Shown: piece by piece, positions 3,493-63,126 of the stretch | Layout: each line of letters begins with the position of its first letter | How positions within the stretch are numbered: position 1 is the stretch's first letter | Assembly (NCBI GenBank): GCA_019163375.1 | Contig: JAFLKK010000004.1 | Location: 682,001 to 746,000, forward strand | DNA: 64,000 nt | Source: Paludibacter sp. | GTDB taxonomy: Bacteria; Bacteroidota; Bacteroidia; Bacteroidales; Paludibacteraceae | Direction of reading: 5' to 3' | Translations under genes and position numbers: made by a program | Notes under the pieces: generated by a model | Told to the model about the DNA's origin: nothing | Databases searched by the model: none | Seen by the model: only the letters and a program-made list of their open reading frames with translations

Positions 3493-6114
3493 ATGATAAA
3501 AAGAATAGTTTTTGTATTCTTATCAATTTTCTGCTTCTCGGTCTACGCTTATAGCATAGATGCGTGGATTCGGATTAACCAACTGGGTTACTTGCCGAAT
3601 GCACCCAAGAAAGCTGTATTCATGAGCGAAAGTGCACAAAGCGTCACTCAGTTTTCCATTTACGACGCACTGACAAATAAAGAGTTAGCTACACTGCCTA
3701 CTATCACTAAGTGGGGGCGGTTTCAATCTTTCAAAAGCACTTACATTCTCGATTTTTCTTCTTTCAAACTTCAGGGAGCCTTTTACATCAAGGCGGGATT
3801 GATCTATTCGCCTACAATTTACATAAATAATAATATTTATTTGGGTAGTGCCGATTTCTTGCTGAATTACATGCGCGAGCAGCGGTGTGGGTACAATCCG
3901 ACCCTTAAAGTAAGCTGCCATCAGGGCGAAAGCTACGAAATATCTGAAGAAGTAAAACAGGCGGAGCCTGTCAGCCAGCCTGCCACCGGTATCCGATTAT
4001 CCCGAAGGACGACGACCGTGTCATCTCAGGAACCTTCCATTAGGCAGGTAGATGTACGAGGTGGATGGCACAATGCTTCCGATTATTTGCAATATGGTTC
4101 TACCTCGGCTACTGCCGTATATCAACTGTTGTTTGCCTACCAAATGAACCCAACCGCCTTTGCCGATAAGCACGATGCAGAAGGTAATCCGACGAAAAAC
4201 GGCATCCCTGATATTCTGGATGAGGCCAAATGGGGCCTGAACTGGCTGCTGAAAATGTATCCTCAAAAGGATGTGCTGTATCACCAGATATCCGACGATA
4301 GGGATCGATTGTCTTTCCAATTATCGGCTAAGGATATGGATAAAAACGACAAACTAAATACGGCTCGTCCGGTATTCCGCGCCACCGGTAAGCCGCAGGG
4401 CTTGTTCAATATCAAAAACAGAAGTACTGGTATTGCCTCCATTGCAGGGAAATATTCATCTGCTTTCGGGTTAGGGGCGGAACTGCTGCGAAAACAGTTT
4501 CCTGCTTTTGCCGATAGCCTGAATGCCAAAGCCGTTGAGGTGTATCAATTTGGGAGAAAGCATCCCGGCGTAACTCAATCGGTGCCGGGCGTTATGGCAA
4601 ACTTTATCGAAGAAGATAACTGGGCTGATGATATGGAACTGGCCGCAACACAACTTTACCGACTGAGTTATGATGGTGAATACCTGAAACAGGCAGCCGA
4701 TTATGGACGAATGGAACCCATCACTCCCTGGATGTGCTCCGATACGGCCCGCAATTTTCAATGGTATCCCTTTGTCAATATCGGACACTATATGTTGGCA
4801 AATGTAGAAAATCCACGCTACCAACAGGAATACTTACAAAACATGCTCAACGGCATTCAGCGGGTGAAAGTGCGAGCCGACGAAAATCCGTTCAATATGG
4901 GTGTACCCATGATCTGGGGCTCGAACAATATGGTGGCAGCCTTTGCTACGCAATGTAAATTGTACCGCACCATCACCAACGATACCAGCTTTGTAAACAT
5001 GGAAACTTCGCTTGTTGATTGGCTGTTTGGTTGCAATCCATGGGGGACAAGCATGGTGATAGGGTTGCCCAAAACAGGCGATACGCCGGGAAGTCCGTAT
5101 GCTTACACCTGGCGCAACACCACTAAAACACTTGCTGGCGGAGTAGTTGATGGGCCGGTGAGTAAAGATGCCTACATTAATTTGCCGGGCATGAATTTGC
5201 AGAATGCGGATGGGTATTTGCGCTTTCAAACCGATTGGGCGGTGTACCACGATGATCCTGCCGATTATTCTACCAACGAGCCGACCATCGATGGCACGGC
5301 TGCGCTCACCTATTTGTTGGGTAGCAAGCAACTGGAGGGAACTCCCGGCAAAACAGCCGACAATAACGAATACAAATACGGCGGAATAATACGTGCCGAC
5401 TCCACCAAAAAGCAGATTAGCCTTGTTTTTACAGGAAATGAATTTGCCGAAGGCTATGAAACCATTAGTTCCGTGCTGAAAAAACTAAACATAAGAGCTT
5501 CGTTCTTTTTTACCGGAGATTTTTATCGCAATAAGAATTTTGCAGAAGTGATAAAAGGGTTGGTAGCCGATAATCAATACGTAGGAGCGCATTCTGACAA
5601 AAATCTGCTTTATTGCTCGTTCCAAAACCGCGACTCGTTAATGGTGAACAAAGAAGAGTTTCTGAATGATTTGAGGGCGAACTATGCCGAGATGCAGAAA
5701 TTTGGAATTGATAAAAATCAGACGCCTTTTTTTCTGCCGTCCTACGAATGGTACAACGACAGCATTAGCTCCTGGTGCAAAGAAGTGGGCATTACGCTGG
5801 TGAATGGAACCCCGGGAACGTATACTACCGGTGATTACACTACACCCGACATGCGCGACAAGTACTTTTCGAGCAACGAGATTTACAAACGCATTTTGAA
5901 AGTGGAATCAACAAAAGGATTGAATGGATATATTCTGCAATTTAATATAGGTACCGATAAACGCAGACAAGATAAGTTTTATAAACAATTGTACTCGCTG
6001 TTGATCGACTTGTCGAGATTGGGATACGACTTTGTGGATTTGTATAAAGCAACAGACACAATAGCCCGAAATGAGATAGTGCTGACGGATAAAAAACAAA
6101 AAAGGAAGAACTAA
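3493..6114 (+). CDS. Secreted GH9 glucanase fused to a degenerate NodB (polysaccharide deacetylase) domain
   Basis: From the ATG at 3493 this is 873 residues with a signal peptide (MIKRIVFVFLSIFCFSVYAYS). An N-terminal cellulase Ig-like domain (about 25-120, starting IRINQLGYLPNAPKKAV) precedes the GH9 (alpha/alpha)6 catalytic domain (about 165-610), with GGWHNASDYLQY and DYSTNEPTID holding the likely acid Glu. Residues ~635-860 resemble NodB/CE4 deacetylases. Two oddities stand out. The usual GGWxDAxD motif has Asn for the first Asp. The NodB metal motifs are altered: LVFTGNEFAEG replaces TFDDG, and HSDKN replaces HSxxH. The GH9 part may keep activity on beta-1,4-glucans since the second Asp and the Glu remain; the NodB part may only bind. 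It is monocistronic with its own promoter and terminator, far from the xyloglucan locus. Confidence 0.85.
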   Translation: MIKRIVFVFLSIFCFSVYAYSIDAWIRINQLGYLPNAPKKAVFMSESAQSVTQFSIYDALTNKELATLPTITKWGRFQSFKSTYILDFSSFKLQGAFYIKAGLIYSPTIYINNNIYLGSADFLLNYMREQRCGYNPTLKVSCHQGESYEISEEVKQAEPVSQPATGIRLSRRTTTVSSQEPSIRQVDVRGGWHNASDYLQYGSTSATAVYQLLFAYQMNPTAFADKHDAEGNPTKNGIPDILDEAKWGLNWLLKMYPQKDVLYHQISDDRDRLSFQLSAKDMDKNDKLNTARPVFRATGKPQGLFNIKNRSTGIASIAGKYSSAFGLGAELLRKQFPAFADSLNAKAVEVYQFGRKHPGVTQSVPGVMANFIEEDNWADDMELAATQLYRLSYDGEYLKQAADYGRMEPITPWMCSDTARNFQWYPFVNIGHYMLANVENPRYQQEYLQNMLNGIQRVKVRADENPFNMGVPMIWGSNNMVAAFATQCKLYRTITNDTSFVNMETSLVDWLFGCNPWGTSMVIGLPKTGDTPGSPYAYTWRNTTKTLAGGVVDGPVSKDAYINLPGMNLQNADGYLRFQTDWAVYHDDPADYSTNEPTIDGTAALTYLLGSKQLEGTPGKTADNNEYKYGGIIRADSTKKQISLVFTGNEFAEGYETISSVLKKLNIRASFFFTGDFYRNKNFAEVIKGLVADNQYVGAHSDKNLLYCSFQNRDSLMVNKEEFLNDLRANYAEMQKFGIDKNQTPFFLPSYEWYNDSISSWCKEVGITLVNGTPGTYTTGDYTTPDMRDKYFSSNEIYKRILKVESTKGLNGYILQFNIGTDKRRQDKFYKQLYSLLIDLSRLGYDFVDLYKATDTIARNEIVLTDKKQKRKN

Positions 6115-6130
6115 TTAGCTCTTCCTTTTT
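6098..6130 (+). terminator. Terminator overlapping the end of the GH9 gene
   Basis: AAAAAGGAAGA pairs with TCTTCCTTTTT around the loop that contains the stop codon. The run of T follows directly, so the stem-loop ends GH9 transcription and separates it from the convergent tRNA-His. Confidence 0.65.
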
Positions 6131-6146
6131 ATGGGCTTTTAAATAA

Positions 6147-6222
6147 GGGTGGGAGACGGGGCTCGAACCCGCGACTTTCGGAACCACAAACCGACGCTCT
6201 AACCAACTGAGCTACAACCACC
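6147..6222 (-). tRNA. tRNA-His (GTG)
   Basis: On the minus strand the cloverleaf reads GGTGGTTGTAGCTCAG..., with D-loop GTTGGTT, anticodon loop TTTGTGG (anticodon GTG, His), T-loop GGGTTCGAGCCC and 3' end CTCCCACC with the discriminator C typical of tRNA-His. The encoded extra 5' G (position -1) is present. No CCA is encoded. Two acceptor positions (5:68 and 6:67) read as pyrimidine mismatches, which is unusual but may be conserved in this group. Confidence 0.93.
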
Positions 6223-6337: not shown

Positions 6338-7024
6338 ATGAAGTATTGCCTTATAACACCCGTATTAGAAGCCGAAATTGCCGAGATAAGACGCAAAATC
6401 ATGCTTTCGATGAATGGAATTACGTCCGAAAAGATGACTCAAAGCGGCGTGGTTTACAAAAAAAACTACGGTGTAGCCATTCCCCGCATAAAAGAAATTG
6501 CCTCGTTTTACAGCCCTAATTCCGAATTGGCACAACGGCTTTGGATAATTGGCATTCGCGAAACAATGATCATAGCAACTTTGTTACAACCCGTGAATCG
6601 GTTTACGCCCGAAATGGCCAACGAATGGGTAGATGCTATTCAGCAAGTAGAAATGGTGGAACAAACCTGCATGAACCTGTTCTCTAAATTGCCATTTGCC
6701 AATGAACTTTGTTTACAATGGGTGGACTCGGGTAACTTATGGAAACAAATTACAGGGTTTGTACTGGCTGCAAGAGTTTACGATCGATTGACAAAGGACG
6801 AAGCACTCCGGTTGATTGAGAAAATAATGAAACTGTCTACCACAACAGAGTTTCATTTGTATAAAGCATTGAGTCTTTGTCTGTGCAGGCTGGCCCGAAA
6901 AGACAAGGAAACAGCAACTTACATTTCGAAAGAAATAGAAAGCATTTCGGATACAAATAGTATTGGTCAACAATATATTTCTTCCGAAGTGAAACAAGAA
7001 TTGTTATATTTAGATATTCTATAG
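6338..7024 (+). CDS. DNA alkylation repair protein (AlkD-like HEAT repeat)
   Basis: This 228-residue, helix-rich cytosolic protein matches the AlkD/DNA-alkylation-repair family, whose HEAT-like helical repeats cradle DNA and release N3/N7-alkylated purines. The landmark is YGVAIPRIKEIASFY followed by LAQRLWIIGIRETMIIATLL, equivalent to the family pattern of a YGV-x-P-x-(I/L) segment, a LA-x-x-LW helix and a (H/R)E-x-(R/M) helix. The length is typical for AlkD. There is no signal peptide. It stands alone, 50 bp before the Fur gene but with a separate promoter box between them. The specific catalytic Asp/Trp residues could not be placed by eye. Confidence 0.72.
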   Translation: MKYCLITPVLEAEIAEIRRKIMLSMNGITSEKMTQSGVVYKKNYGVAIPRIKEIASFYSPNSELAQRLWIIGIRETMIIATLLQPVNRFTPEMANEWVDAIQQVEMVEQTCMNLFSKLPFANELCLQWVDSGNLWKQITGFVLAARVYDRLTKDEALRLIEKIMKLSTTTEFHLYKALSLCLCRLARKDKETATYISKEIESISDTNSIGQQYISSEVKQELLYLDIL

Positions 7025-8845: not shown

Positions 8846-9001
8846 GATTTGAATGCTGAAGGGTAAATTATAAATGATCAATTGTAAATTATTAAAATAA
8901 ATATTGACATTTACTAATAACTGTTTACTCGTAACTGACAAAATGTCTTCTGGCAAGAATTTTGATGCTCAAATTACACAAACAATTTAAAATTAGAAAT
9001 T

Positions 9002-9990: not shown

Positions 9991-12270
9991 TCATTCTTTC
10001 TCGGCAATAATGAGCGTCGACGGAATGTTGGTAAGCCAGTCGCTCTTGGTTTCGATAAGGTATTTCCAGCTCTCTACACTTATCAGCATTAAGTCTTGTT
10101 GTTTGATAAAATCAGCATTAATCCCTCCTTCATTCAGCAAACTTACATGATTCGGTGCTATTTGCTCAATGGCACGAATTGATTCTTTCAGTGCGGAGTT
10201 TTTATTGATGTGATTGTTTACATCTATAAATGATATTTGTGAACCGGAGAAGTTGATCAGCTTCTGTGCAAAACCAATTAGAAATGCATCGTTGGGACTG
10301 ATAACCGGAATACAAATCTCATCGGTTTTTGTAAATCCTTTGTCAATCAATACGCCCACGGTGACTTTGCTTTTAGAAATGATTGCACGGGTTCTTTCAT
10401 CGAAAGGGGAGTTCTCAAAAAGGCTTTCTTTACCCGTTACCTGACTCAGCAATCGGTCGGGATTGATAATTCGGGTGGTAAAACCAAGGATTTTACCCAG
10501 CAAACTACCTTCAAAGATAGACTGTCCGATGCCTATCAGCAACAAATCATATTCTCCTTTGTTGGCCACTTCTGCAATATCCGATTCAATATCGTTGGTC
10601 ACTTTAAATAGGGTAGTGATTTTGTGATTTAAAGTCTTCGACTCTTCTAATATCGGAGCAAAACTTTCATTTTCATATTCGTCTAAGTTGTAATAGTGCG
10701 ACTTTGCACTTGGAAACAAATGCATTGCTGTAATAGCCGAGCTGCCGTTAGTGTTCTTTATCAAACAATTGGCCAACCGAACCAAAGGCTTGCTATTATC
10801 CGGATTGCCGAACGATACAAGTATCTTAAATTTATTAATCTTACTTATTTCATTGATTTTATCTTCTGCTTTCGATTTGAAAAGTCGGTTGATCAAATCT
10901 AATGTCGGCCCTGTCATGAAGGTAGTTACCAAAGCCATTATCACCATCATGGCAAATACTTTAGGCGTTAATATGCCCAGATCGTACCCGATATTCAACA
11001 CCACCAGTTCCATCAACCCACGCGTATTCATCAACGCCCCAATCGTCAGACTGTCTTTCCAACTTTGACCAACAAATTTTGCGGCCAGGGCGCTGCCTAT
11101 AAATTTTCCTGTTATGGCAACTAAAATAATTAAGCCGGTAATTTTCCATAGATAAACATCGTTCAGCAGCCCAATTTCAGTTCGAAGACCTGTAAAAACG
11201 AAAAATAAGGGAAGTAAAAGCACCAGAGCAATATCCTCTACTTTTTCAATAAATATATTTCTGAACTTTTGGTTAGCCGGCATAATTGCTCCGGCCATAA
11301 AAGCCCCAAACAGCGCGTGAATTCCAATTATCTCGGTAGCCCACGCCGACAAAATAAGCGTTACAAAAAATATAGCCACAATGGATTTACTCATATTCAC
11401 ACCCGATGAATACAATTCGCCAACACGTTTCAGAAACGGTCGAACAATCTTTATCATCAGCAATACATACGCAAGTGCCAGCAAAATAGTGTAGAGCGAA
11501 CTGATAAACGAACCCGCTTTGGCAATGGCAATGACGGCGGCAAGAATGCTCCAGCCCGTAATATCATCGGCTGCGGCACAGGTAATAACTATCGTTCCCA
11601 ATCGCGTTTTATGAATTCCCCTCTCCTGAACAATGCGTGCCAAAACGGGGAAAGCGGTTATACTCATAGCTATCCCAACAAACAGCCCGAAGGAAGTAAA
11701 CGACACTCCGGCAGGAGCAAACGACTGATAAATAAAGTACGCCAATCCCATTCCCAGAGAGAAAGGCACGATAATACTGGCATGACTTATCACCACAGCA
11801 TCGTGCGCTTTGTTTTTCAGCACATTCATGTCAATCTCCATTCCTACGATAAACATAAATAGAATCAGCCCTATCTGACTCAAGAACTGGAGATTCCCCA
11901 ATGATGCAACAGGAAACAGAAAATTTGAAAATTCGGGTAAATACATTCCTACTAATGATGGTCCCAACACAATACCGGCTAGAATCTCACCGATAACGCT
12001 TGGTTGCCCTATCTTTTTACATATCCACCCGAACAAACGCGCCACCAATATGATGGTTACAATCTGTGCCAACAGGATAGCCAACGGATGTCCGATATTC
12101 TGCAATAACGAATTTAGAAATACCATCCAATGCGTTTTTCCGGTACTGGGTAGAATTATTTTAGAGGCTACTTCTTGTTTTGAACCCATAAAATCAATCC
12201 AATACATCAAGGCCGAAAAACTTCCGATAATCAGCACATAGAAAAATACGTTTCTAAATCTTTTAAACAT
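9991..12270 (-). CDS. Cation:proton antiporter (CPA2/Kef-NapA type) with a C-terminal USP-like domain
   Basis: From the ATG at 12270 this is 759 residues; an in-frame ATG at 12297 is also possible. The N-terminal ~460 residues form about 12 membrane helices of the Na+/H+ exchanger fold: QPSVIGEILAGIVLGPSLVG, LFMFIVGMEID, MSITAFPVLARI, and AADDITGWSILA with the Asp pair expected in the ion site. The ~290-residue cytoplasmic tail resembles tandem universal-stress-protein domains (e.g. DLLLIGIGQSIFEGSLLGKILGF). Such proteins exchange K+ or Na+ for H+ at the inner membrane. A well-formed promoter lies upstream. The ion is not predictable from the sequence. Confidence 0.88.
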   Translation of the reverse strand: MFKRFRNVFFYVLIIGSFSALMYWIDFMGSKQEVASKIILPSTGKTHWMVFLNSLLQNIGHPLAILLAQIVTIILVARLFGWICKKIGQPSVIGEILAGIVLGPSLVGMYLPEFSNFLFPVASLGNLQFLSQIGLILFMFIVGMEIDMNVLKNKAHDAVVISHASIIVPFSLGMGLAYFIYQSFAPAGVSFTSFGLFVGIAMSITAFPVLARIVQERGIHKTRLGTIVITCAAADDITGWSILAAVIAIAKAGSFISSLYTILLALAYVLLMIKIVRPFLKRVGELYSSGVNMSKSIVAIFFVTLILSAWATEIIGIHALFGAFMAGAIMPANQKFRNIFIEKVEDIALVLLLPLFFVFTGLRTEIGLLNDVYLWKITGLIILVAITGKFIGSALAAKFVGQSWKDSLTIGALMNTRGLMELVVLNIGYDLGILTPKVFAMMVIMALVTTFMTGPTLDLINRLFKSKAEDKINEISKINKFKILVSFGNPDNSKPLVRLANCLIKNTNGSSAITAMHLFPSAKSHYYNLDEYENESFAPILEESKTLNHKITTLFKVTNDIESDIAEVANKGEYDLLLIGIGQSIFEGSLLGKILGFTTRIINPDRLLSQVTGKESLFENSPFDERTRAIISKSKVTVGVLIDKGFTKTDEICIPVISPNDAFLIGFAQKLINFSGSQISFIDVNNHINKNSALKESIRAIEQIAPNHVSLLNEGGINADFIKQQDLMLISVESWKYLIETKSDWLTNIPSTLIIAEKE

Positions 12271-52637: not shown

Positions 52638-52910
52638 ATGACAAATACTACCGAAATGCCTGTACTTATCCAACCACCAACACTATCTGTTTTAAAACTT
52701 GTGCAAAATGACGAAAGCAATGACTTTTACATTGTGGGTATAGAAGATACCGCCCTGCTGGTAGTGAGTGATCTCCACTGCAAGGTAATGCTCAAGCAGC
52801 AAGTCACCAATAATGAACTCGTTTCAATAAGCTCATTCCGAAAAGGCATATACATAGCCAAGATTATTACCGAAACCGCTATGGTGGAAAAGAAATTGGT
52901 GAAGAAATAA
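52638..52910 (+). CDS. Stand-alone T9SS type A sorting-domain-like protein
   Basis: This 90-residue protein has no signal peptide. Its last ~55 residues follow the Por-secretion tail pattern: ALLVVSDLHCKVMLKQQ (usual: xVxVYDxxGKxVxxxx), LVSISSFRKGIYIAKI (usual: IDLSxLxxGVYxVKI) and a terminal EKKLVKK. Such tails normally end large secreted proteins and direct them through the type IX system. Here there is no cargo and no export signal, so it may be a remnant of a larger gene, a regulator that borrows the fold, or a decoy. It lies directly upstream of the duplicated repeat block. Confidence 0.65.
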   Translation: MTNTTEMPVLIQPPTLSVLKLVQNDESNDFYIVGIEDTALLVVSDLHCKVMLKQQVTNNELVSISSFRKGIYIAKIITETAMVEKKLVKK

Positions 52911-52912
52911 TG

Positions 52913-53226
52913 CCTAACCGAACGGCCGCTACAAGCGGCCGTTCGGTTAAACACACAGGTTAAGCACACAAATACTACCTATTCTCTTCTTTGAGGGTGT
53001 CCAATAAGTGTTTTTTTGAACGCAAATTACGCAAATAGCACAAATTTTCGCAAATCTCATTTTTATAAATACAAATATATCAGCAATTTATATTTTGTGT
53101 CGATTTGCGGTTTTTGCGTAATTTGCGTTCTTTTTTCTTTTTAGACACCCTCTTTAGTTTTTCCAACCCCACCGAACGACAGCTATTGTTATAAGCACAC
53201 AGAATGCACCGAATAATCGGATTTTC
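52913..53226. repeat. Duplicated block, copy A
   Basis: This block and 53372-53706 are near-identical: each starts CCTAACCGAACGGCCGCT, passes CACAAATACTACCTATTCTC, holds a MITE-like element and ends GAATAA.CGGATTTTC. The first 35 bp of copy A form a palindrome (AACCGAACGGCCGCT / AGCGGCCGTTCGGTT) that may terminate the upstream gene. A partial third unit (CTGCTACAAGCG ... CACAAATACTACC) lies between the copies at ~53325-53371. Confidence 0.85.
52993..53152. mobile_element. MITE-like element, copy A (160 bp)
   Basis: The element starts GAGGGTGTC and ends GACACCCTC, with inner arms GAACGCAAATTACGCAAA and TTTGCGTAATTTGCGTTC, an AT-rich middle, and TTT on each side as a possible 3-bp target duplication. 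No transposase is encoded, so it is non-autonomous. The end sequence resembles termini of some Bacteroidota insertion sequences, which is an inference from pattern only. Confidence 0.65.
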
Positions 53227-53267
53227 ACAGACAATACTGATTTACCTTTTAATGGAGTTCTGCGCAT

Positions 53268-53300
53268 ATTCGGGGCGCGACTTGAAGTCGCACTCCGAAT
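53268..53300. repeat. GACTTGAAGTC palindromic repeat, copy at 53.3 kb
   Basis: ATTCGGGGCGCGACTTGAAG then TCGCACTCCGAAT. It shares ~110 bp of context with the 48.5-kb copy. Confidence 0.8.
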
Positions 53301-53371
53301 AACAGGGATAAACGAATTTCCTCACCAAACGGCTGCTACAAGCGTTTTATCAGATAAGCACACAAATACTA

Positions 53372-53706
53372 CCTAACCGAACGGCCGCTACAAGCGGCCT
53401 GTCGGTTTAGCACACAGGTTAAGTGCACAAATACTACCTATTCTCTTCTTTGAGGGTGTCCAATAAGTGTTTTTTTGAACGCAAATTACGCAAATAGCAC
53501 AAATTTTCGCAAATCTCATTTTTATAAATACAAATATATCAGCAATTTATATTTTGTGTCGATTTGCGGTTTTTGCGTAATCCGTCAGTGGACGGACAAG
53601 TTTTGCGTTCTTTTTTCTTTTTAGACCCCCTCTTTAGTTTTTCCAACCCCACCGAACTGCAGCTGTTGTTATAAGCACACGGAATGCACAGAATAAACGG
53701 ATTTTC
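53372..53706. repeat. Duplicated block, copy B
   Basis: A direct duplicate of 52913-53226, with a few substitutions and a 21-bp insertion inside its MITE-like element. Some symmetric positions of the palindromes have decayed (CGGCCTGTCGG instead of CGGCCGTTCGG). Confidence 0.85.
53452..53632. mobile_element. MITE-like element, copy B (181 bp) with a 21-bp hairpin insertion
   Basis: Same ends and arms as copy A (GAGGGTGTC ... GACCCCCTC). The right inner arm is interrupted after GCGTAAT by CCGTCAGTGGACGG plus seven bases, which is a small hairpin (TCCGTC, AGTG, GACGGA). The insertion length explains the 160 versus 181 bp difference exactly. Confidence 0.65.
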
Positions 53707-53707
53707 G

Positions 53708-53742
53708 CACTCATCCGATGACTTCAAGTCATCGGATGAGTG
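53708..53742. repeat. Perfect 35-bp palindrome
   Basis: CACTCATCCGATGACTT, one central C, AAGTCATCGGATGAGTG: 17-bp arms with no mismatch. It carries the same GACTTCAAGTC centre as the dispersed family but different arms. Confidence 0.85.
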
Positions 53743-55665: not shown

Positions 55666-57099
55666 ATGAATATCGAAAACTTTAAAGTCTACGGACTTCA
55701 CGGAAAATTAAATTACGATATAAGATTTGAAAATAATTCTCTAATTCTTGTGGCCGAAAATGGCTCTGGTAAAACAACTTTGGTCAATATGTTTTATTAT
55801 TTTCTATCCAGACAATGGAGAAAATTAAATGAATATCAATTCGAGAAAATAACAATTCGAATTAATTCAAAAGACTTTTCATTTGACAAGAAAAATTTCA
55901 AAGAGATATTATTGAGAGATTCAAAAATGTCCAAAAGGTTTCCATCCCGTTATTCTAGAATTGCGGAGGAAATTATAAGCAAATATAATATTATTGAATT
56001 AAGAAGAAATCCTGAAGTTATGGAGAGAATTGCAAATCAGTATGATGTGCCATTAGGTCTAATTAATGAAATAATAATGATGTATAGAGATGAGGAACAT
56101 AGGATAGAAAAAGACAATCGAGTTCAACAACTAGAAGAATTACTTAATCTCGAATTCAAGAATACTCAAATTGTATACTTACCTACATATCGTAGGATTG
56201 AAAAGGACTTAAAAAACATATTTCCACACTTAGAGGAAAGTATGAAAGAATATGAATATAAAAAACGCAGAAGATCCTTAATCGCTGAAAGTCCTGACTA
56301 TGTTGAATTGGTTGAATTTGGAATGGATGATGTAAAGGAAAGAGTAGAGAGAAGATGCTCGGAACTGAAAGGATACTTTTACAATAATTTAAGTGGTAAA
56401 ATAACGGGGTCATATCTCGAAGATATATTAAATAAACGATATAAATCCTTTGATTCTGAAAAAATACAAAGTTTCAATGATGATGCTTTGATGTACTTAT
56501 TGAAAAGATTAGATGATAGTATAATCAGTACAGAAGGTAAGAACGAACTAAAGAAATTTGTTGAGAAAGTAAGGGAGGAGGGAGCAATTGGAGATGAAGA
56601 CAAAATAAATGCATATTTTGTTTGGAAACTTTTTCAGATTTACGAAGAACAACAAAATGCAGAATTAGATATAAATCGATTTGTCAACATATGCAATGAT
56701 TACATAAAAGAAGGGAAACATTTTCACTATGACAACGATACATTTAAAGTTGATATTTTTTTAGATGACGAATTAAAACAAACTATTATACCAGTTGAAA
56801 AAGACATCTTAGAAAAATTAAAAGAAGAAAAAGCCATGATTGAATATAAAGATTTATCATCTGGTGAAAAACAAATAGTTTCATTATTCAGTCACTTGAT
56901 TTTGAGCAAAAAAGATTATTTCATTATTATCGATGAACCCGAACTTTCTCTCTCTGTTCCGTGGCAAGAGAGACTGCTTCCAGATATTATAAATTCAGGT
57001 GGCTGTCAAGGAATTTTGGCTGTAACACATTCTCCTTTTATTTTTAAAAATGATATGAAACAGTATTCACATTCTCTAGAAGAATTTTTAATCAAATAA
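55666..57099 (+). CDS. AAA/ABC-type ATPase, AriA-like (PARIS defence)
   Basis: This 477-residue cytosolic ATPase begins MNIENFKVYGLHGKLNYDI. It holds a Walker A (VAENGSGKTTLVNMF, Lys 36), a long charged helical insertion (~110-330), an ABC-signature-like DLSSGEKQIVSLFSHLIL (~400), a Walker B (YFIIIDEPELSLSVPWQERL) and an H-loop (AVTHSPFIF). This is the RecF/OLD-like AAA_15/AAA_21 type. It is followed 3 bp later by a DUF4435 gene, the pairing that defines PARIS, in which the ATPase AriA senses phage anti-restriction proteins and releases the toxic TOPRIM partner AriB. Length matches AriA. The sequence is AT-rich compared with the PUL, consistent with transfer. Confidence 0.8.
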   Translation: MNIENFKVYGLHGKLNYDIRFENNSLILVAENGSGKTTLVNMFYYFLSRQWRKLNEYQFEKITIRINSKDFSFDKKNFKEILLRDSKMSKRFPSRYSRIAEEIISKYNIIELRRNPEVMERIANQYDVPLGLINEIIMMYRDEEHRIEKDNRVQQLEELLNLEFKNTQIVYLPTYRRIEKDLKNIFPHLEESMKEYEYKKRRRSLIAESPDYVELVEFGMDDVKERVERRCSELKGYFYNNLSGKITGSYLEDILNKRYKSFDSEKIQSFNDDALMYLLKRLDDSIISTEGKNELKKFVEKVREEGAIGDEDKINAYFVWKLFQIYEEQQNAELDINRFVNICNDYIKEGKHFHYDNDTFKVDIFLDDELKQTIIPVEKDILEKLKEEKAMIEYKDLSSGEKQIVSLFSHLILSKKDYFIIIDEPELSLSVPWQERLLPDIINSGGCQGILAVTHSPFIFKNDMKQYSHSLEEFLIK

Positions 57100-57102
57100 A
57101 GT

Positions 57103-58077
57103 ATGGCTTTTATTGACGTACTAGAAAAAGCTGGAGATTCATTTGAAGCTTCGTATATCAAATTTCTTCATCAATACAAGTTTAGAGATAAAACTCTTCA
57201 TTTCTTTTTTGAAGGACTTGATGACCAATCATTTTATGCAAATTATCTTGAAAGTACATTTCCAGATAATTATGAATTTAACTATTATGTTTGTAATGGA
57301 AAAGATAATGTATATAGTAATTACAAAAATATTAATTGGACAGTATACAATAAAAATAGAGTACTTTTTTTTACAGACAAAGACCTGGACGATATCATTG
57401 GTGTAACCAATGTCAAAGACGAGAACATATTTGAAACTCAATATTATTCAATAGAAAATTATTTGGTTACAGCAGAAGTATATGGTAGATTTTTAAGAGA
57501 AATTTGCTATATTACAGAAAGTGAAGTTATAAGTAAATTAAAAACTGAATTTATAAATCAATTAAGTTCTTATAGTGAAAAGATGACAAGTATTTCTGCT
57601 TGGGTAGTTTATTGCAGAAAAAATAACTTACCTGTAAATTTAAGTGATATTGATATTTCCAAAATATTTTCAATTTCAAAAGATTTCAAGATTAAAAGAG
57701 ATATTTCAAGTGGACACAATACACCATTTGAGTATATATGCTCAGTAACAAAGACGAATTATTATGATTTGAAAGAGATTAAAGAGATTTCAACAGCTTT
57801 ACAAGGGATTATACCTGCAAAAAATTTCATAAGAGGGAAATATGAATTGTGGTTTCTATACGCATTCTGCAAAAATACGATTGAAAACACAATTCCTTCT
57901 CTAAATGAAGAAATAAAGAAACATAATTCAACTAATCGAATAAAAAAGACTAAATGTAAAGTTACAATCTCATTAAAGCCAGAAAATATCATACAAATTA
58001 CTGCACCTAGAGCAAGAATCTCAAAAGATATTTCAGACTTTCTGAATCATAATTTAAATAAAATAACCAACGCCTAA
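57103..58077 (+). CDS. DUF4435 TOPRIM-like protein, AriB-like (PARIS effector)
   Basis: This 324-residue protein carries the DUF4435 pattern: LHFFFEGLDDQSFYANYLES (TOPRIM-type Glu ~38), RVLFFTDKDLDDI (acidic DxD-like cluster) and YYSIENYLVTAEVY. The rest is helical with no further known domain. In characterised PARIS, the DUF4435/TOPRIM protein is a nuclease that cleaves host tRNA and aborts infection once released by the ATPase. The tight spacing (3 bp) with the ATPase gene indicates co-regulated expression. A DUF4435 protein in another ATPase-linked defence module is the alternative reading. Confidence 0.8.
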   Translation: MAFIDVLEKAGDSFEASYIKFLHQYKFRDKTLHFFFEGLDDQSFYANYLESTFPDNYEFNYYVCNGKDNVYSNYKNINWTVYNKNRVLFFTDKDLDDIIGVTNVKDENIFETQYYSIENYLVTAEVYGRFLREICYITESEVISKLKTEFINQLSSYSEKMTSISAWVVYCRKNNLPVNLSDIDISKIFSISKDFKIKRDISSGHNTPFEYICSVTKTNYYDLKEIKEISTALQGIIPAKNFIRGKYELWFLYAFCKNTIENTIPSLNEEIKKHNSTNRIKKTKCKVTISLKPENIIQITAPRARISKDISDFLNHNLNKITNA

Positions 58078-58205: not shown

Positions 58206-58241
58206 AGCAAATATTAGTATTTGTTGAATAGAATTCAATAT

Positions 58242-59198
58242 ATGAACCAAGCAAGAGACAAAAAGACAGGCGAGATTATAGATGCAGAGTCATTGAAACA
58301 TCTTTTTGAGGATGGCTTATCAGAGTATGAATGTATAGACGAGAAATGTAGAATTAAGTTATTACCATGTTCTTTTAAACCAAGTAATAAAATAAGACCA
58401 TATTTTAAATCATTAGGACTAGAAAACCATAGACAAACTTGCAAGTTTAGTGAGTATCTGAAGTTGTTAGAAAAGGCTAAAAATCGGCCTTTTACAGAAT
58501 TTGAACTTGAAGATATGCCATTTCCTACTAAATTAAAAAAAGTAAAATTAAATGATGGTAATGATACCACGTTTAAAACAAATATTATTGGAAATGAAGA
58601 ACCTGGAAAAGGAGGATTAAGAAGTAAAGCTTCTGGTGAGTTTATCGAAATATTAAACAAATCAAAAGTTGTTGCATCAATTTCCCCAATTGTTGATTTT
58701 TACATTAAGTGTCCATATAATAGACATATGGAGATTGAGATTGAGGATGTGAAGAAAATGTATATGTATTGGTTTAAAAGGATAGAAAAACCATTAGTTA
58801 CAGGTAACTATAAAGGACAGTGTATTTTTTTTGGAAGGTTGCATACTAATAAAGAAAAAATCATAGAAACAGAAGAAACCCTAGAGATTACTTTATTTGA
58901 AAGTGAAGACTGGGAAAAAAGTGACAAGGATAAGCCAGCCAAACAAATTAATCCATTTATTATCAGTATTAACAAAGCCCTAATTTCCAAGAATAAGGTA
59001 AGTAGAATTAAGAATGAAATTGATTATGCTATAGAAGAAAAAATAGAAGCCTTTAAAAGTAAGGTAGTTGATAAGAAAAAACATGCTTTTATATTCTTTC
59101 TGGGTGAAGCTCCGACAAAGAATGAACCATATAAATTTAAAGTTATAGATGGTTATCTGGTCGCCCGCTACACTCAAATTTTTCAAACAAAGCAATAG
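58242..59198 (+). CDS. Unknown protein with N-terminal Cys/His cluster
   Basis: The ATG at 58242 (in-frame TTGs lie upstream) gives a 318-residue protein that I do not recognise as a named family. Residues ~30-75 carry Cys/His positions typical of a small zinc site: YECIDEKCRIKLLPC, then PYFKSLGLENHRQTCKF. This recalls the zinc-ribbon-like N-termini of CoiA-type and some defence proteins. The rest is mixed alpha/beta (IVDFYIKCPYNRHMEIEIED, CIFFGRLHTNKEK, KKHAFIFFLGEAPTKNEPYK). No signal peptide. It follows the PARIS-like pair by ~165 bp and is the first of the repeat-separated genes. A defence role is only a guess from position. Confidence 0.6.
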   Translation: MNQARDKKTGEIIDAESLKHLFEDGLSEYECIDEKCRIKLLPCSFKPSNKIRPYFKSLGLENHRQTCKFSEYLKLLEKAKNRPFTEFELEDMPFPTKLKKVKLNDGNDTTFKTNIIGNEEPGKGGLRSKASGEFIEILNKSKVVASISPIVDFYIKCPYNRHMEIEIEDVKKMYMYWFKRIEKPLVTGNYKGQCIFFGRLHTNKEKIIETEETLEITLFESEDWEKSDKDKPAKQINPFIISINKALISKNKVSRIKNEIDYAIEEKIEAFKSKVVDKKKHAFIFFLGEAPTKNEPYKFKVIDGYLVARYTQIFQTKQ

Positions 59199-59208
59199 CC
59201 GAATTAGG

Positions 59209-59312
59209 TTGGCGCAAGTTTGTAGCTTGTGTCTTGTTTTGAAAAAACAATCTATTCTTCTTTTCTGCTCTACCGAACAACACACCGATTACAAATCGGC
59301 GCGAGCGTGTGG
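59209..59312. repeat. Cassette repeat R1
   Basis: Starts TTGGCGCAAGTTTGTAGCTT and ends ACAAATCGGCGCGAGCGTGT. The two ends pair imperfectly over ~27 bp; the loop contains two smaller hairpins (TTGTTTT/AAAACAA and TGCTC/GAACA-type). It begins 11 bp after a stop codon. Confidence 0.8.
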
Positions 59313-59474
59313 TAATATGCATTCAATAAAGGACAGGTCACGACTTATCTCAGCTGTAGTGTGATTTTTATGAAAGAATTTGTGATTATGATTTCAGCTG
59401 ATTAAAAAATATTTAAAGTTTATTTGACTTGCAGATGGAAGTAACAACATTGTATTCACTTTAAAAAAAACAAT

Positions 59475-59996
59475 ATGTCAAGGAAATTATTGTTGACGTT
59501 GTCATTATTTCTGATAACTATCAGCACCCTATTCGGGCAATCTAAATTTCAAAATGACTTGTACGGTTTTGGAGGGCAAGTGCCGGACGACTGGCACGTA
59601 TATGGTGAACTTAAAGATGACCTTACAAACAAAAGAGCAATCATTGACTGGGGATTACCTAAGGTTTATAGTGAACTCGAAAAGACATCAATTGAAAATT
59701 CCGTTTCAATAACAGCTTATAAGAGGCCAAGTTTAAAATCAATAGATGATTTGACAAAGTTTGAGTTTGGAAGAGTTGCAAATGTTCTCGTATCAAAAGA
59801 GCTAATTGATTCGACTTCTTATATTGTTTTTACAGTAAGAAATGGATTAAAATTCAAGAGCAAGCTAACATTTGTTTTCAAAAATGAAGTTGGGTATGTA
59901 TTGAACTTCACAGCAACTCCCGGGACATATGATATTAATCTTTCAAAGTTTGACAATTTCGTTAGGAGCTTACAAATCTTTAAACCAAAAGATTAG
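59475..59996 (+). CDS. Secreted protein of unknown function (PsbP/DUF1795-like shape)
   Basis: This 173-residue protein has a signal peptide (MSRKLLLTLSLFLITISTLFGQ). The mature part begins FQNDLYGFGGQVPDDWHVYG and ends YDINLSKFDNFVRSLQIF, similar in outline to PsbP/DUF1795-type proteins, which have an N-terminal folded PxxW strand and a C-terminal FxxIvxSlki helix. That comparison is by pattern only. It is alone between repeats R1 and R2. Confidence 0.65.
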   Translation: MSRKLLLTLSLFLITISTLFGQSKFQNDLYGFGGQVPDDWHVYGELKDDLTNKRAIIDWGLPKVYSELEKTSIENSVSITAYKRPSLKSIDDLTKFEFGRVANVLVSKELIDSTSYIVFTVRNGLKFKSKLTFVFKNEVGYVLNFTATPGTYDINLSKFDNFVRSLQIFKPKD

Positions 59997-60008
59997 TAAC
60001 TAGTCTAG

Positions 60009-60111
60009 GTCGGCGCAAGTTTATAACTTGTGTCTTGTTTTGAAAAAATAATCTCTTCTTCTTTTTGCTCTAAGAGCAATACACCGAGTATGAATCGGCG
60101 CGAGCGCGGGG
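60009..60111. repeat. Cassette repeat R2
   Basis: Starts TCGGCGCAAGTTTATAACTT and ends GAATCGGCGCGAGCGCGGGG. It is the most diverged of the five at its right arm. It begins 13 bp after a stop codon. Confidence 0.8.
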
Positions 60112-60136
60112 AGAATAATCATAAAAAAATAAAAGT

Positions 60137-60718
60137 ATGAAAAAAACAATGACAATCATTCTCGCAGCACTGTTGCTTTCAGGCTGCGGAGCATTACAAA
60201 ATTCGGTTCATGTCGAAAACGATCTCGTAATGAAAACAAGAAGGGTTTTGTATGAAACCAGTTTTTATGCAAATCAACGTTACGAACCCTATTATACTCA
60301 AAACATTACGATAGTAAAAGAAACGAATAATGACAATAAAACGACCTACTCTATTTATGACGTCATCTCTCTTCCTTCCGAGAGTTTTGAAATTGACGAA
60401 AATAAACTCTATTTAATCATTGATGAGGAGATTATTCCTTTCCCAACCGTTTTCAAAAGAGAATATAATAGTCGTAATATAAGTGAGAAAAAAGAAGATG
60501 TAATGAAATCCGATTCTACAAAAATATCCGTAGTTACGGGTTATGATGTTGTCAATAAAAAAAATATTCAAATGACTCATATTCTCTCTGAAGATATTAT
60601 TAGTAAAATCAGTAAGGCGAGTACCGTATATTTAAGATACTATCTGGGAGCGAGCTATATCAATACTGAAATTAAAGGTGGAAAACTGGAAAATGTAAAA
60701 AAACTGATAAGTGAGTAA
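60137..60718 (+). CDS. Lipoprotein of unknown function
   Basis: This 193-residue protein has a lipoprotein signal (MTIILAALLLSGCGALQN, Cys ~17). The mature region is rich in beta strands (YEPYYTQNITIVKETNNDNK, YSIYDVISLPSESFEIDENK, YLRYYLGASYINTEI). I know no named family. It would sit in the periplasm or outer membrane. It is alone between repeats R2 and R3, with its start only 25 bp after R2. Confidence 0.65.
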   Translation: MKKTMTIILAALLLSGCGALQNSVHVENDLVMKTRRVLYETSFYANQRYEPYYTQNITIVKETNNDNKTTYSIYDVISLPSESFEIDENKLYLIIDEEIIPFPTVFKREYNSRNISEKKEDVMKSDSTKISVVTGYDVVNKKNIQMTHILSEDIISKISKASTVYLRYYLGASYINTEIKGGKLENVKKLISE

Positions 60719-60725
60719 ATATCGT

Positions 60726-60832
60726 ACGCTGGTGCAAGTTTGTAACTTGTGTCTTGTTTTGAAAAAACAATCAATTCTTCTTTTTTGCTCTAACGAGCAA
60801 CACACCGATTACAAATCGGCGCGAGCGTGGGG
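60726..60832. repeat. Cassette repeat R3
   Basis: Starts ACGCTGGTGCAAGTTTGTAA and ends AAATCGGCGCGAGCGTGGGG. The arms ACGCT / AGCGT close the stem. It begins 7 bp after a stop codon. Confidence 0.85.
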
Positions 60833-60858
60833 CACATTATTAAAAAACAAAGCAGGAC

Positions 60859-62010
60859 ATGAAAGCATACTATCTAATTATAACGTTTTGCATTATGACT
60901 TCGCCAATTTGGGGACAATATGACGATGCACCAACTGTTACAATAAGTGGAAAAGTACGGAATTTTGATCCGAAAAATTTAGAGATATTATTTGTATTTT
61001 CAAGAGCTGGTTTCTTCCAAGAATCAGCAATACGAACAAATATGGATAAAAATGGGAATTTTAAAGCTAGCTTCAAAACATATATCCCAACTGAATTTGA
61101 AGTATGCTACAAGCTTGCTCCCATTTTTACCGCTTCTGTTTACCCAAAAGACAACATTTATATTAAAAGTTTTTCAAGCTATAAAGAGAATATGACAAAC
61201 CCGATTGGTGTTGTGTTTAAAGGGAGTTCTGCGAAGTTTAATAGCGAAATCTTTTTTTTCAAAAGACTTTGTTTTAATAGTAATATCAATCCTTACAAAC
61301 CACTACCAGTTCAATGGGTGCCTCTTGATAGATTTACACCAGTTGCTTATGCGAAGTATTTGAAAGACACTGTTCTTGTCAAATGCGACGATTTATTAAA
61401 GTGTTATGTTCAGAAATACAAGCCTAGTGTAGAAGCATTAGAGTGGTGTAAGTTTTATTATGAAGTTAATGAGTATTATGAACAATTAGCCCATTATCCT
61501 GGAGATTATTTTAGCAGTGAAGGATATTATAATGTAAAAGAAAGAGTTGAAAATTACATAAAGAAAAAAGACATTCCAGTTCCAGAAATATATTACAATC
61601 CTTTGACCAGCTCTCTTCCTTTAAAAAACTCAATGTTTTTAAATAGTATTGCATTAGCAGATTACATTAGGACGTTTTACAATTATATTATCAAAAAAAC
61701 AGTTTGTGAGCAGAATAGTGAATACTGCAACAAATATGAATGGCGAGGGCTTAAGACTAATTGTAACTTTGATTCTTTGAAAATTGCTGGCATTAGGAAA
61801 TATATAAAAGACCCATTATTAAAACAAATGTTGTTAGCCAATACTTTGGTGGATGGAATGTACTGCAAAGAAAAATTGATGAGTTTTAAGAAATATGAGT
61901 CATCTATTGTTAAACAGCAAATCAAAGAGCCATATTTGAAGAGCCATTTATATTATATGTACGAGAAAGCCAAGAAAGTAGTTGAAGAAAGGGAAAAAGA
62001 AAAAAAATAA
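60859..62010 (+). CDS. Secreted protein with a DUF4369/TlpA-N-terminal-like domain
   Basis: This 383-residue protein has a signal peptide (MKAYYLIITFCIMTSPIWGQ). Residues ~25-115 resemble the beta-rich N-terminal domain that precedes thioredoxin domains in Bacteroidota TlpA-like proteins (VTISGKVRNFDPKNLEILFV, TNMDKNGNFKASFKTYIPTE, VYPKDNIYIKSF). No CxxC thioredoxin domain follows; the remainder is helical and charged, ending in a Lys/Glu tail. The function is unknown. It is alone between repeats R3 and R4. Confidence 0.6.
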   Translation: MKAYYLIITFCIMTSPIWGQYDDAPTVTISGKVRNFDPKNLEILFVFSRAGFFQESAIRTNMDKNGNFKASFKTYIPTEFEVCYKLAPIFTASVYPKDNIYIKSFSSYKENMTNPIGVVFKGSSAKFNSEIFFFKRLCFNSNINPYKPLPVQWVPLDRFTPVAYAKYLKDTVLVKCDDLLKCYVQKYKPSVEALEWCKFYYEVNEYYEQLAHYPGDYFSSEGYYNVKERVENYIKKKDIPVPEIYYNPLTSSLPLKNSMFLNSIALADYIRTFYNYIIKKTVCEQNSEYCNKYEWRGLKTNCNFDSLKIAGIRKYIKDPLLKQMLLANTLVDGMYCKEKLMSFKKYESSIVKQQIKEPYLKSHLYYMYEKAKKVVEEREKEKK

Positions 62011-62032
62011 CGATGCTCTCAGTTAAGCTTAA

Positions 62033-62142
62033 CGCACGCTGGCGCAAGTTTGTAACTTGTATTTTGTTTTGAAAAAATAATCTATTCTTCTTTTTTGCTC
62101 TAACGAGTAACACACCGATTACAAATCGGCGTGAGCGTGGGG
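62033..62142. repeat. Cassette repeat R4
   Basis: Starts CGCACGCTGGCGCAAGTTTG and ends AATCGGCGTGAGCGTGGGG. The outer arms CACGCT / AGCGTG pair perfectly. It begins 22 bp after a stop codon. Confidence 0.85.
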
Positions 62143-62155
62143 ATAAGGCTAAAAC

Positions 62156-62325
62156 CACCCCAAACCCCTGAAGGGGCTTAAGAGTGGTTTTCGAGAAGGT
62201 TTACATTTAATCAAATGTGTTGATGAAGGCAAAGCTATTATAAATGCTACTTATTTAGGTAAAGCATCTGTAGGAGGCGGTTGTAATTACAAGTCCCCTT
62301 CAGGGGATTTAGGGGTGGATGAAGA
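62156..62325. mobile_element. Inverted-repeat-flanked ~170-bp insert between R4 and R5
   Basis: The left arm CCACCCCAAACCCCTGAAGG and the right arm CCTTCAGGGGATTTAGGGGT are imperfect reverse complements. The interior stays open in one frame (GFREGLHLIKCVDEGKAIIN followed by ATYLGKASVGGG) without a start codon, so it may be a gene fragment carried with the repeats. Confidence 0.45.
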
Positions 62326-62341
62326 AGAATCTGAAAAGCAC

Positions 62342-62453
62342 CACGCACACTTGTGCAAGTTTGTAACATGTGGCTTGTTTTGAAAAAACAATCTCTTCTT
62401 CTTTTTTGCTCTAACGAGCAACACACCGATTACAAATTGGCGCGAGTGTGTGG
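62342..62453. repeat. Cassette repeat R5
   Basis: Starts CACGCACACTTGTGCAAGTT and ends ACAAATTGGCGCGAGTGTGT. Compensating changes (CACACT on the left, AGTGTG on the right) keep the outer stem paired, which argues that the structure itself is selected. Confidence 0.85.
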
Positions 62454-62499
62454 AAATCGGTTTTCGACAGTTGGAAAAACAATGGTAAATTTAAATTGA

Positions 62500-63126
62500 A
62501 TGACAATTAAAGAATATTTCAAACTAACACAAAAAAGCAGTTCTAGTTTAATTAAAATAATTGGGGTGATTTACACATCGATGTTTGCGTTAATTCTTAT
62601 TGCTACGAATTACAACAAATCCCTAACCGATGTATTTAATAACTTTATAATTATTTTTTTAGTAGCAAATGGTTTTGCATTATTAATTTGGTCTCAAACA
62701 TTTTTTGTTTCATATTTTGATGTAAAGCGGATGATAGGTTTTTATGAATCATTCCAAAGACAAAAAGTGGATATGATTTTAACGTTGCATGAAGAGAAGG
62801 GGCGCAAATCAGATCTTCTAAAATTATTTGCCATAGGTATTTATTCTAATCAGATTTTTCGTTTTGTATTGGATAAGAATTATGTTTTTATCACATTGTA
62901 CCTTAATGTAAACAGCATTGAAAGATTTCCAAAAAGAGCAACTACAATTAGAAGAAAGTATACTAAGTTAAATATGGATCTAACTGGTTATGGTTTAATG
63001 AGACAAGTAAAATACAAAAACTGGAAAAGTTTTACTAGTGATGATATAATTTTACTTTTTGAAGAACTTGAAACTATTTCAATTAACGAAAATATACCAA
63101 TAATTGAGTACGTGCAAGAAACTTGA
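62500..63126 (+). CDS. Membrane protein of unknown function
   Basis: This 208-residue protein has two N-terminal membrane helices (IIGVIYTSMFALILIATNY and FNNFIIIFLVANGFALLIWS) and a ~130-residue soluble domain, probably cytoplasmic (VDMILTLHEEKGRKSDLLKL, NQIFRFVLDKNYVFITLYLN). I do not recognise the family. It is the last single-gene unit before a different type of inverted repeat at 63.1 kb. Confidence 0.65.
   Translation: MTIKEYFKLTQKSSSSLIKIIGVIYTSMFALILIATNYNKSLTDVFNNFIIIFLVANGFALLIWSQTFFVSYFDVKRMIGFYESFQRQKVDMILTLHEEKGRKSDLLKLFAIGIYSNQIFRFVLDKNYVFITLYLNVNSIERFPKRATTIRRKYTKLNMDLTGYGLMRQVKYKNWKSFTSDDIILLFEELETISINENIPIIEYVQET

Follow-up and report, generated by a model that had tools for sequence, protein, structure and literature searches.

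A five-copy array of repeats interleaved with genes

We analysed a stretch of 64,000 nucleotides from Paludibacter sp. (contig JAFLKK010000004.1, positions 682,001 to 746,000; hereafter the window), which belongs to a source genome of 4.66 Mb in 29 contigs. The window contains five direct copies, R1 to R5, of a structured repeat of about 113 nt, 65-100% identical to the reference copy R3. The five copies and the genes between them are all on the + strand, so that the array reported in a preliminary description of the window is real. That description had placed most of the repeats just 3′ of stop codons. In core coordinates, the distance from stop codon to repeat is indeed 11, 13, 11 and 29 bp for R1, R2, R3 and R4, but R5 has no gene directly 5′. 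The downstream gene starts 26 bp past R2 and 27 bp past R3. One unrelated gene had been ascribed to each spacer but R4-R5; the intervals R1-R2, R2-R3 and R3-R4 do hold one gene each, and R4-R5 has none. What had been taken there for a gene fragment is instead another dispersed repeat, with further copies on contigs C5, C8, C9 and C12 of the source genome and short end matches in many relatives. The features are listed below; a REP doublet stands for a pair of inverted repetitive extragenic palindromes (REPs).

59200..59316, + strand: R1, REP doublet, 108.7 bits (model R2)
60001..60115, + strand: R2, REP doublet, the most diverged copy, right REP CCGAGTATGAATCGG, 87.0 bits
60720..60836, + strand: R3, REP doublet, reference copy, 120.7 bits
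60726..60751, + strand: left REP of R3, ACGCTGGTGC-AAGTTTGTAACTT-GTG, hairpin with 10/10 pairs including wobbles
60803..60829, − strand: right REP of R3, inverted; the − strand reads CACGCTCGCGC-CGATTTGTAATCG-GTG, hairpin core with 6/6 pairs
62030..62146, + strand: R4, REP doublet, 116.2 bits
62341..62457, + strand: R5, REP doublet, one compensated outer-arm pair, 105.4 bits
58074..58168, no strand assigned: sixth element, partial and doublet-like, left REP GCTGGCGC-GGTTCTGTGAACC-GTG only, weak match (25.1-25.4 bits, E 0.009)
58221..59198, + strand: 325-aa gene before R1, PADLOC candidate family PD-Lambda-4_B (E 1.6e-25)
59475..59996, + strand: 173-aa gene of the R1-R2 interval, without Pfam family up to E 0.1
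60137..60718, + strand: 193-aa gene of the R2-R3 interval, weak lipoprotein signal, below cut-off
60859..62010, + strand: 383-aa gene of the R3-R4 interval, without Pfam family
62141..62339: R4-R5 spacer, a different dispersed inverted-repeat element, ends CCACCCCAAACCCCTGAAGGGG / CCCCTTCAGGGGATTTAGGGGTGG
62500..63126, + strand: 208-aa gene after R5, without Pfam family up to E 0.1
55666..58077, + strand: two-gene unit immediately 5′ of the array, with an AriA-like ATPase gene and an AriB-like DUF4435 gene

At Rfam gathering scores, two tRNAs and nothing else were found in the window. Homologues were sought in species representatives. The 383-aa gene had 12 matches, itself included, among 5.8 billion proteins. 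The five array genes showed no DNA match longer than 52 bp in 35 relatives, an absence that is weak because only eight candidates per genome were scored.

The repeats consist of two inverted hairpins

Folded as RNA, R3 was better than 200/200 dinucleotide shuffles (z -4.65) and, as DNA, better than 199/200. A structural alignment was built from 20 copies of seven genomes. The local hairpins, one in each half, had 42 cells changed on both sides as compared to 12.7 in shuffles (0/500 as high), with a covariation score of 0.357 as compared to 0.165. A helix joining the two arms, as in integron attC sites, also exceeded its shuffles (26 cells against 13.6, score 0.218 against 0.159, 0/500 on both), owing to matching outer arms and loops. 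The pairs 27/91, 29/89 and 17/101 of this helix were nevertheless unpaired in 19, 16 and 16 of the 20 copies. The left and the right hairpin each kept 6/6 core pairs in 17 of the 20. The two halves are asymmetric with respect to the strand: a G-T wobble occupies columns 15/31 in 20/20 copies and the mirror pair 87/103 is unpaired in 19/20. Each half is therefore a hairpin specific to one strand, the right half being an inverted version of the left. Conservation of the right half and of the spacer is at least as high as that of the left half. The compensating change noticed earlier in the outer arms of R5 is present, as a replacement of G-C by A-T at one pair.

The stem was also examined independently of the alignment, by a pattern search of 295 Bacteroidales genomes with three stem positions left free. 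The pattern was matched in 34 genomes and a reversed control pattern in none of the 295. Among the places listed, 51 distinct sequences were found, with 128/153 Watson-Crick pairs at the free positions (permutation mean 60.4, maximum 81 in 2000). Overall, R1-R5 have the anatomy of a REP doublet, that is, two inverted palindromic hairpins of about 20-40 nt around a short spacer, as in REP doublets forming hairpins (REPINs) or bacterial interspersed mosaic elements (BIMEs). Together with the presence of the family hairpin at transposase genes, described in the next section, the two inverted strand-specific hairpins identify the repeats as REP doublets.

The family hairpin flanks transposase genes

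In other Bacteroidales, genes for REP-associated tyrosine transposases (RAYTs) have the family hairpin, CGCTGGCGC-GGATTTGCAATCC-GTGCC, in their flanks. We scanned the flanks of RAYT genes from relatives and from the 295 Bacteroidales genomes and listed the hairpins found there. Of 49 loci, eight had no open reading frame (ORF) by the motif used and were dropped. A tree was made from 40 sequences, namely 39 of the remaining 41 loci (L056 and L059 omitted) and L162. At L132, CGCTGGCGCGGATTTGCAATCCGTGCC lies 5′ of the RAYT gene and its inverse 3′. A variant of the R-type hairpin stands on both sides of the gene at L133. R-type hairpins are found 3′ of the gene at L134 and L135, the latter with a pattern match (67333-67357) just 5′. 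At L155, a broken RAYT copy with a stop within the match, the GGTTCTGTGAACC variant lies 5′, as in the partial element at 58074 of the window. Seven close RAYT relatives have a sister hairpin (CGCTG/ACCGC-hairpin-GTGG), and these seven form a single clade with L132-L135 and L155 (support 98/98). Thus, the repeats have likely been spread by a transposase of this kind.

The proteins share with RAYT subclass 2.6 (group 5 of Bertels) their occurrence in Bacteroidetes and, in P0001, the motifs NHVH and YIHNNP; as described in the accessible text of PMC6006769, this subclass has the motifs NH[LIV]H and YIH[QN]NP and flanking 'atypical secondary structures' that are copied elsewhere in the genome. 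The subclass label is given here from motif and phylum only, the general RAYT family NF047646 being above its cut-off for L132 and L066.

A further locus, L162 of genome G118, relates a RAYT gene to a doublet. There, the gene begins right after an R-type left hairpin, and a short doublet lies 2.3 kb away. The left ends of the two agree at 72 of 81 aligned columns, inner hairpin included. From this one clear pair, the doublet is likely an internal-deletion derivative of the RAYT unit.

Two Y1_Tnp genes are present in the source genome, an IS200-like one with GGTGCTACGCACC hairpins and a RAYT (NF047646, 102.8 bits for a cut-off of 80) with hairpins GGTGGGATTTGCAATCCCACC and AGGATTTGTAATCCG. These loci were considered as the origin of R and ruled out, as their hairpins differ.

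Further copies often form same-orientation arrays

A first search of the source genome (G000) gave 11 places: the five window copies, four in a second array, one on C8 and a partial one on C6. Array 2 consists of four close copies on the minus strand at C1:58657-62962, which the first search had placed at C1:58661-62937; their left end differs from that of array 1. The single copy lies at C8:105233. With a broader model (E up to 0.01), dispersed extragenic doublets were found at 22 distinct places, among them more distant relatives in two additional clusters, one of three at C1:143564-146900 and one of two at C1:496976-497879. An ORF of at least 90 aa was present in 9/10 intervals inside the four clusters, the exception being R4-R5; this count excludes two partial elements, those at 58074 and C1:59902. 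Doublets occur at 15 places in the complete congener G016, a weak 16th one being left out of the clustering count. With a covariance model built on six copies, relatives were detected in 6/59 other genomes, all within the genus. Exact matches to the 28-nt core of the right half occurred on nine other contigs: three from one Paludibacter sp. metagenome-assembled genome (MAG), two from one Paludibacteraceae MAG, two from Dysgonamonadaceae, one from Tannerella and one from an unplaced Bacteroidales MAG.

Placement next to stop codons was tested on 34 of the 52 listed elements, 18 weak, partial or edge ones being omitted. Within 40 bp 3′ of a stop codon lay 20/34 copies, as compared to 18.8% expected from random intergenic placement, and within 40 bp 5′ of a start 5/34, as compared to 16.6%. 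Similar gene-interleaved, same-orientation arrays are present elsewhere in the genome and in congeners.

The doublets are strongly clustered. In G016, 12/15 have a neighbour within 2.5 kb (random mean 0.29, maximum 6 in 20,000 draws); when placement was confined to 30 random 10-kb islands, this figure of 12 was never reached in 5000 draws. The corresponding figure in the source genome is 16/22 against 0.50 expected. Adjacent doublets are on the same model strand in 22/24 pairs. Spacers are more alike within clusters (identity 0.74, 41 pairs) than between them (0.46, 245 pairs; 0/2000 permutations as high).

In array 2, a PD-(D/E)XK gene and its 3′ doublet are tandemly duplicated with 607/613 bases identical, and the duplicated unit ends at the 3′ end of the doublet within a few bases. 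Gene content near doublets also differs between related genomes. In the region beside hisA, two related MAGs (about 93-96% DNA identity) have HipBA in L045 against 12 bp in L113, the HipBA boundary being about 220-310 bp from the doublet. At L044, a doublet and another gene stand at the position that is occupied in L113 by the front part of a 397-aa gene. As this comparison rests on MAG contigs, assembly error is possible. For the C8 copy, 1/65 ORFs matched in a synteny comparison with G016, so there was no usable orthologous locus.

Accessory-looking genes near doublets include the AriA/AriB-like and PD-Lambda-4_B-like genes of the window and HipBA, SLATT and PD-(D/E)XK genes elsewhere; redoxins and hydrolases are also present. 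The AriA/AriB-like pair presumably corresponds to the system named PARIS. A few pairs of genes next to doublets are common to different loci (L116/L018 at 65%, L009/L023 at 87%), with no clear shuffling.

Several other repeats were observed. At L009, PDDEXK_3 genes at 5807-6208 and 6418-6819 (C1:58.8-59.8 kb), which we take to be of the GxxExxY type, are flanked by 27-nt inverted repeats TGTCTGAATCAGAATT and may be a small mobile element of their own; in G022, a relative at 87% is located 257 bp away from a doublet. Also at L009, a second REP-pair family (GGCGTAGTCTCCAGACTACGTC / GCAAGGCTCTTGCCTTGC) was seen in and beside array 2 (8890-8990 and 10680-10830), and it resembles hairpins beside the RAYTs of G004, G015 and G017. 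In the window, two adjoining repeated segments occupy 52905-53709, one of 218 nt (96%) and one of 108 nt (93%); they are mostly non-coding and contain several hairpins.

Comparison with integron cassettes

The cassette-like look of array 1 had led to an integron-like reading. On such a reading, R would be the attC site of a decayed chromosomal integron and each gene with its R a cassette. One gene with one structured repeat just 3′ of its stop codon, in one orientation, is what such an array, or a cluster of attC sites lacking an integron integrase (CALIN), would look like, and the cross-arm helix above its shuffles points the same way. However, the repeats are not attC-like in detail. Integron attC sites have an R″ core RYYYAAC and an R′ core GTTRRRY. 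When the sequences were read by eye for this consensus, the left core was seen only in R4 (GCTTAAC) and in the element at 58074 (GCCTAAC), and the right core in none, in keeping with the earlier remark that canonical cores are not consistently present. The covariation is stronger locally than across the arms, in favour of local rather than long hairpins. The genes after R2 and R3 start so close to the repeat that there is no room for a second attC half.

The absence of an integrase from the window was also borne out, with zero Phage_integrase matches there and 14 elsewhere in the source genome. No integron integrase (IntI; TIGR02249) was above cut-off in the source genome, nor in 13 others of the 15 genomes with family hairpins, G118 alone having one. 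The latter, at G118:C95:2689-3513 (TIGR02249, 314 bits), stands in a genome that also carries RAYT doublets.

Cassette ends were compared as well. None of the six array-1 units had start/end complementarity outside the repeats' own arms; two array-1 genes scored 11 and 12 in a relaxed test, solely via these arms. A strict GTT/AAC cassette test in the source-genome loci had no array gene among its matches. In array 2, complementarity was found for 1/7 genes, L009 8983-9756, with ends TTAGCGGTAATTAT / ATAACTACCGCTAA and a score of 13.0 for a null maximum of 11.5. The gene at L113 3815-4657 scored 13.5, inside the null range of its set (maximum 20.0), and was accepted for its GTT/AAC-like format and for the attC-like left half that it shares with the L009 gene, not for the score. 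In G064, the strict test gave three genes with ends complementary over 10 bases, as compared to 0.25 expected, and the relaxed test added a fourth. The region concerned, G064:C3:137-149 kb (L158), is an integron-type cassette array with complementary cassette ends, where four copies of a REP-headed segment of about 245 bp stand directly before cassette starts. An attC with R inside its loop was also considered: attC-like halves flank doublets at L010, L009 and L113, but none do so in array 1, and the idea was rejected.

The cassette-type ends near some doublets (L009, L113, G064) suggest that some islands hold both decayed integron cassettes and REP doublets. As R-type hairpins in addition flank RAYT genes, we consider it highly improbable that R1-R5 themselves are attC sites.

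Interpretation of the arrays

Taken together, the hairpin anatomy, the RAYT linkage and the clustering make it probable that R1-R5 are REP doublets of a RAYT family, likely moved in trans by a RAYT, and that local duplication and inter-doublet recombination likely extended the array within a predicted accessory island. A RAYT would cleave the R hairpins as single strands and copy the doublets. The cognate enzyme would have been present formerly, or would reach the cell from elsewhere. Such RAYT-driven dispersal would lead to safe sites 3′ of genes, where copies may persist because these sites are harmless or because the hairpin helps to end or protect the mRNA. Extra units would then arise by unequal exchange between doublets of the same orientation.

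Several observations weigh against this interpretation. No movement of a doublet was observed, and no cognate RAYT for R was found in the source genome, where both Y1_Tnp genes lack the full R hairpin; AGGATTTGTAATCCG, the second hairpin of the resident RAYT, is common to the family in its core only. The RAYT of L162 falls outside the 98/98 clade despite its R-type hairpin, and its fragment, cut by a contig end, scores 67.6 with NF047646 for a cut-off of 80. No GTAG/GGAG-type foot was seen by eye beside the hairpin. As far as the accessible text of PMC6006769 goes, REPs of subclass 2.6 and of class 3 do not have the GT[AG]G consensus, and a canonical foot is thus a mark of other RAYT subclasses. 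Copies B3 and B4 of array 2 stem from one duplication and are therefore not independent in the stop-proximity test. For 21/37 doublets the most similar spacer is found within their own cluster and for 16/37 outside it, and the R-type copies of the source genome form a star in which the C8 copy and B3 differ at 0/80 columns and R3 and B1 are one base off. Near-identity at distant loci implies that copies passed between those loci; together with the 16 outside matches, it makes local duplication alone insufficient. Finally, in Pseudomonas SBW25, according to the accessible part of PMC3116915, next-neighbour distances of REPINs above 200 bp do not deviate from random, so that known REPIN behaviour does not predict these arrays.

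Two other explanations start from the same doublets. The arrays could be a gene-capture platform, where homologous or RAYT-mediated recombination inserts a circle of gene and doublet at a doublet already in place, yielding doublet-gene-doublet in direct orientation. Units of a gene and its 3′ doublet would then be excised, captured and stacked at resident doublets, as a second, integrase-free cassette system that would build defence and accessory islands gene by gene, partly atop decayed integron cassettes. The 22/24 adjacent pairs on one model strand, the likeness of spacers within clusters, the mostly unrelated genes between them, the tandem unit with its junction at the 3′ end of a doublet and the presence or absence of HipBA would all be expected. 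However, neither a circle nor a pair of empty and occupied sites was seen; the HipBA boundary is outside the doublet, on a MAG contig (L045) that starts at the doublet; R3 had no match among plasmid records and the hairpin pattern occurred in 2 of about 2.9 million viral contigs. We regard gene capture as rather unlikely, though it is in this tentative form that the 'different recombination-based system' envisaged earlier survives. Alternatively, R could be kept as an RNA 3′-end element, a terminator or an mRNA stabiliser, copied by ordinary duplication with mobility being incidental. Besides the 20/34 copies near stop codons, the left REPs of R1-R3 have terminator-like scores on the + strand, but those of R4 and R5 are not among the listed terminators. 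The RAYT linkage of the hairpin and the conservation of the right half and spacer, at least equal to that of the left half, also argue against this explanation, which appears improbable.

The REP-doublet interpretation can be set against known systems. With REPINs and BIMEs, R shares two inverted palindromic REPs around a spacer, an extragenic and dispersed location and the same hairpin at RAYT genes; the REP doublet has been taken as the mobile unit (PMC3116915 and PMC6006769, in their accessible text). Unlike them, the R arrays are gene-interleaved, with doublets in the same orientation 0.3-2.4 kb apart, and R has no GTAG foot, a low copy number and no cognate RAYT found in the source genome. 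Clustering itself is not new among REPs, as GTAG-23 REPs are clustered, and the accessible part of PMC3116915 describes REPIN clusters of SBW25 as tandem repeats. With miniature inverted-repeat transposable elements of IS200/IS605-type elements, R shares the nature of a non-autonomous internal-deletion derivative, L162 offering a likely parent-derivative pair, but the ends of R are RAYT-type REPs and not those of a mobile IS200. As to attC, recognition of REPs by TnpAREP has been likened to that of folded single-strand attC (PMC8266576, same restriction). No report of gene-interleaved REPIN arrays was found in the literature searched; REPINs are described there, in the accessible portions, as repeats that are either scattered or in tandem, and are not connected with the gain of genes.

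The results provide, even under the ordinary interpretation, a sequence-level link between a REP family and a RAYT clade in Bacteroidota, where the 'atypical secondary structures' at RAYT genes had come from manual inspection (PMC6006769, accessible text), and they account for a type of hairpin repeat that may be confused with attC sites. Should array growth proceed by units of gene and doublet, accessory and defence islands would have a domesticated single-strand transposase system as an engine.

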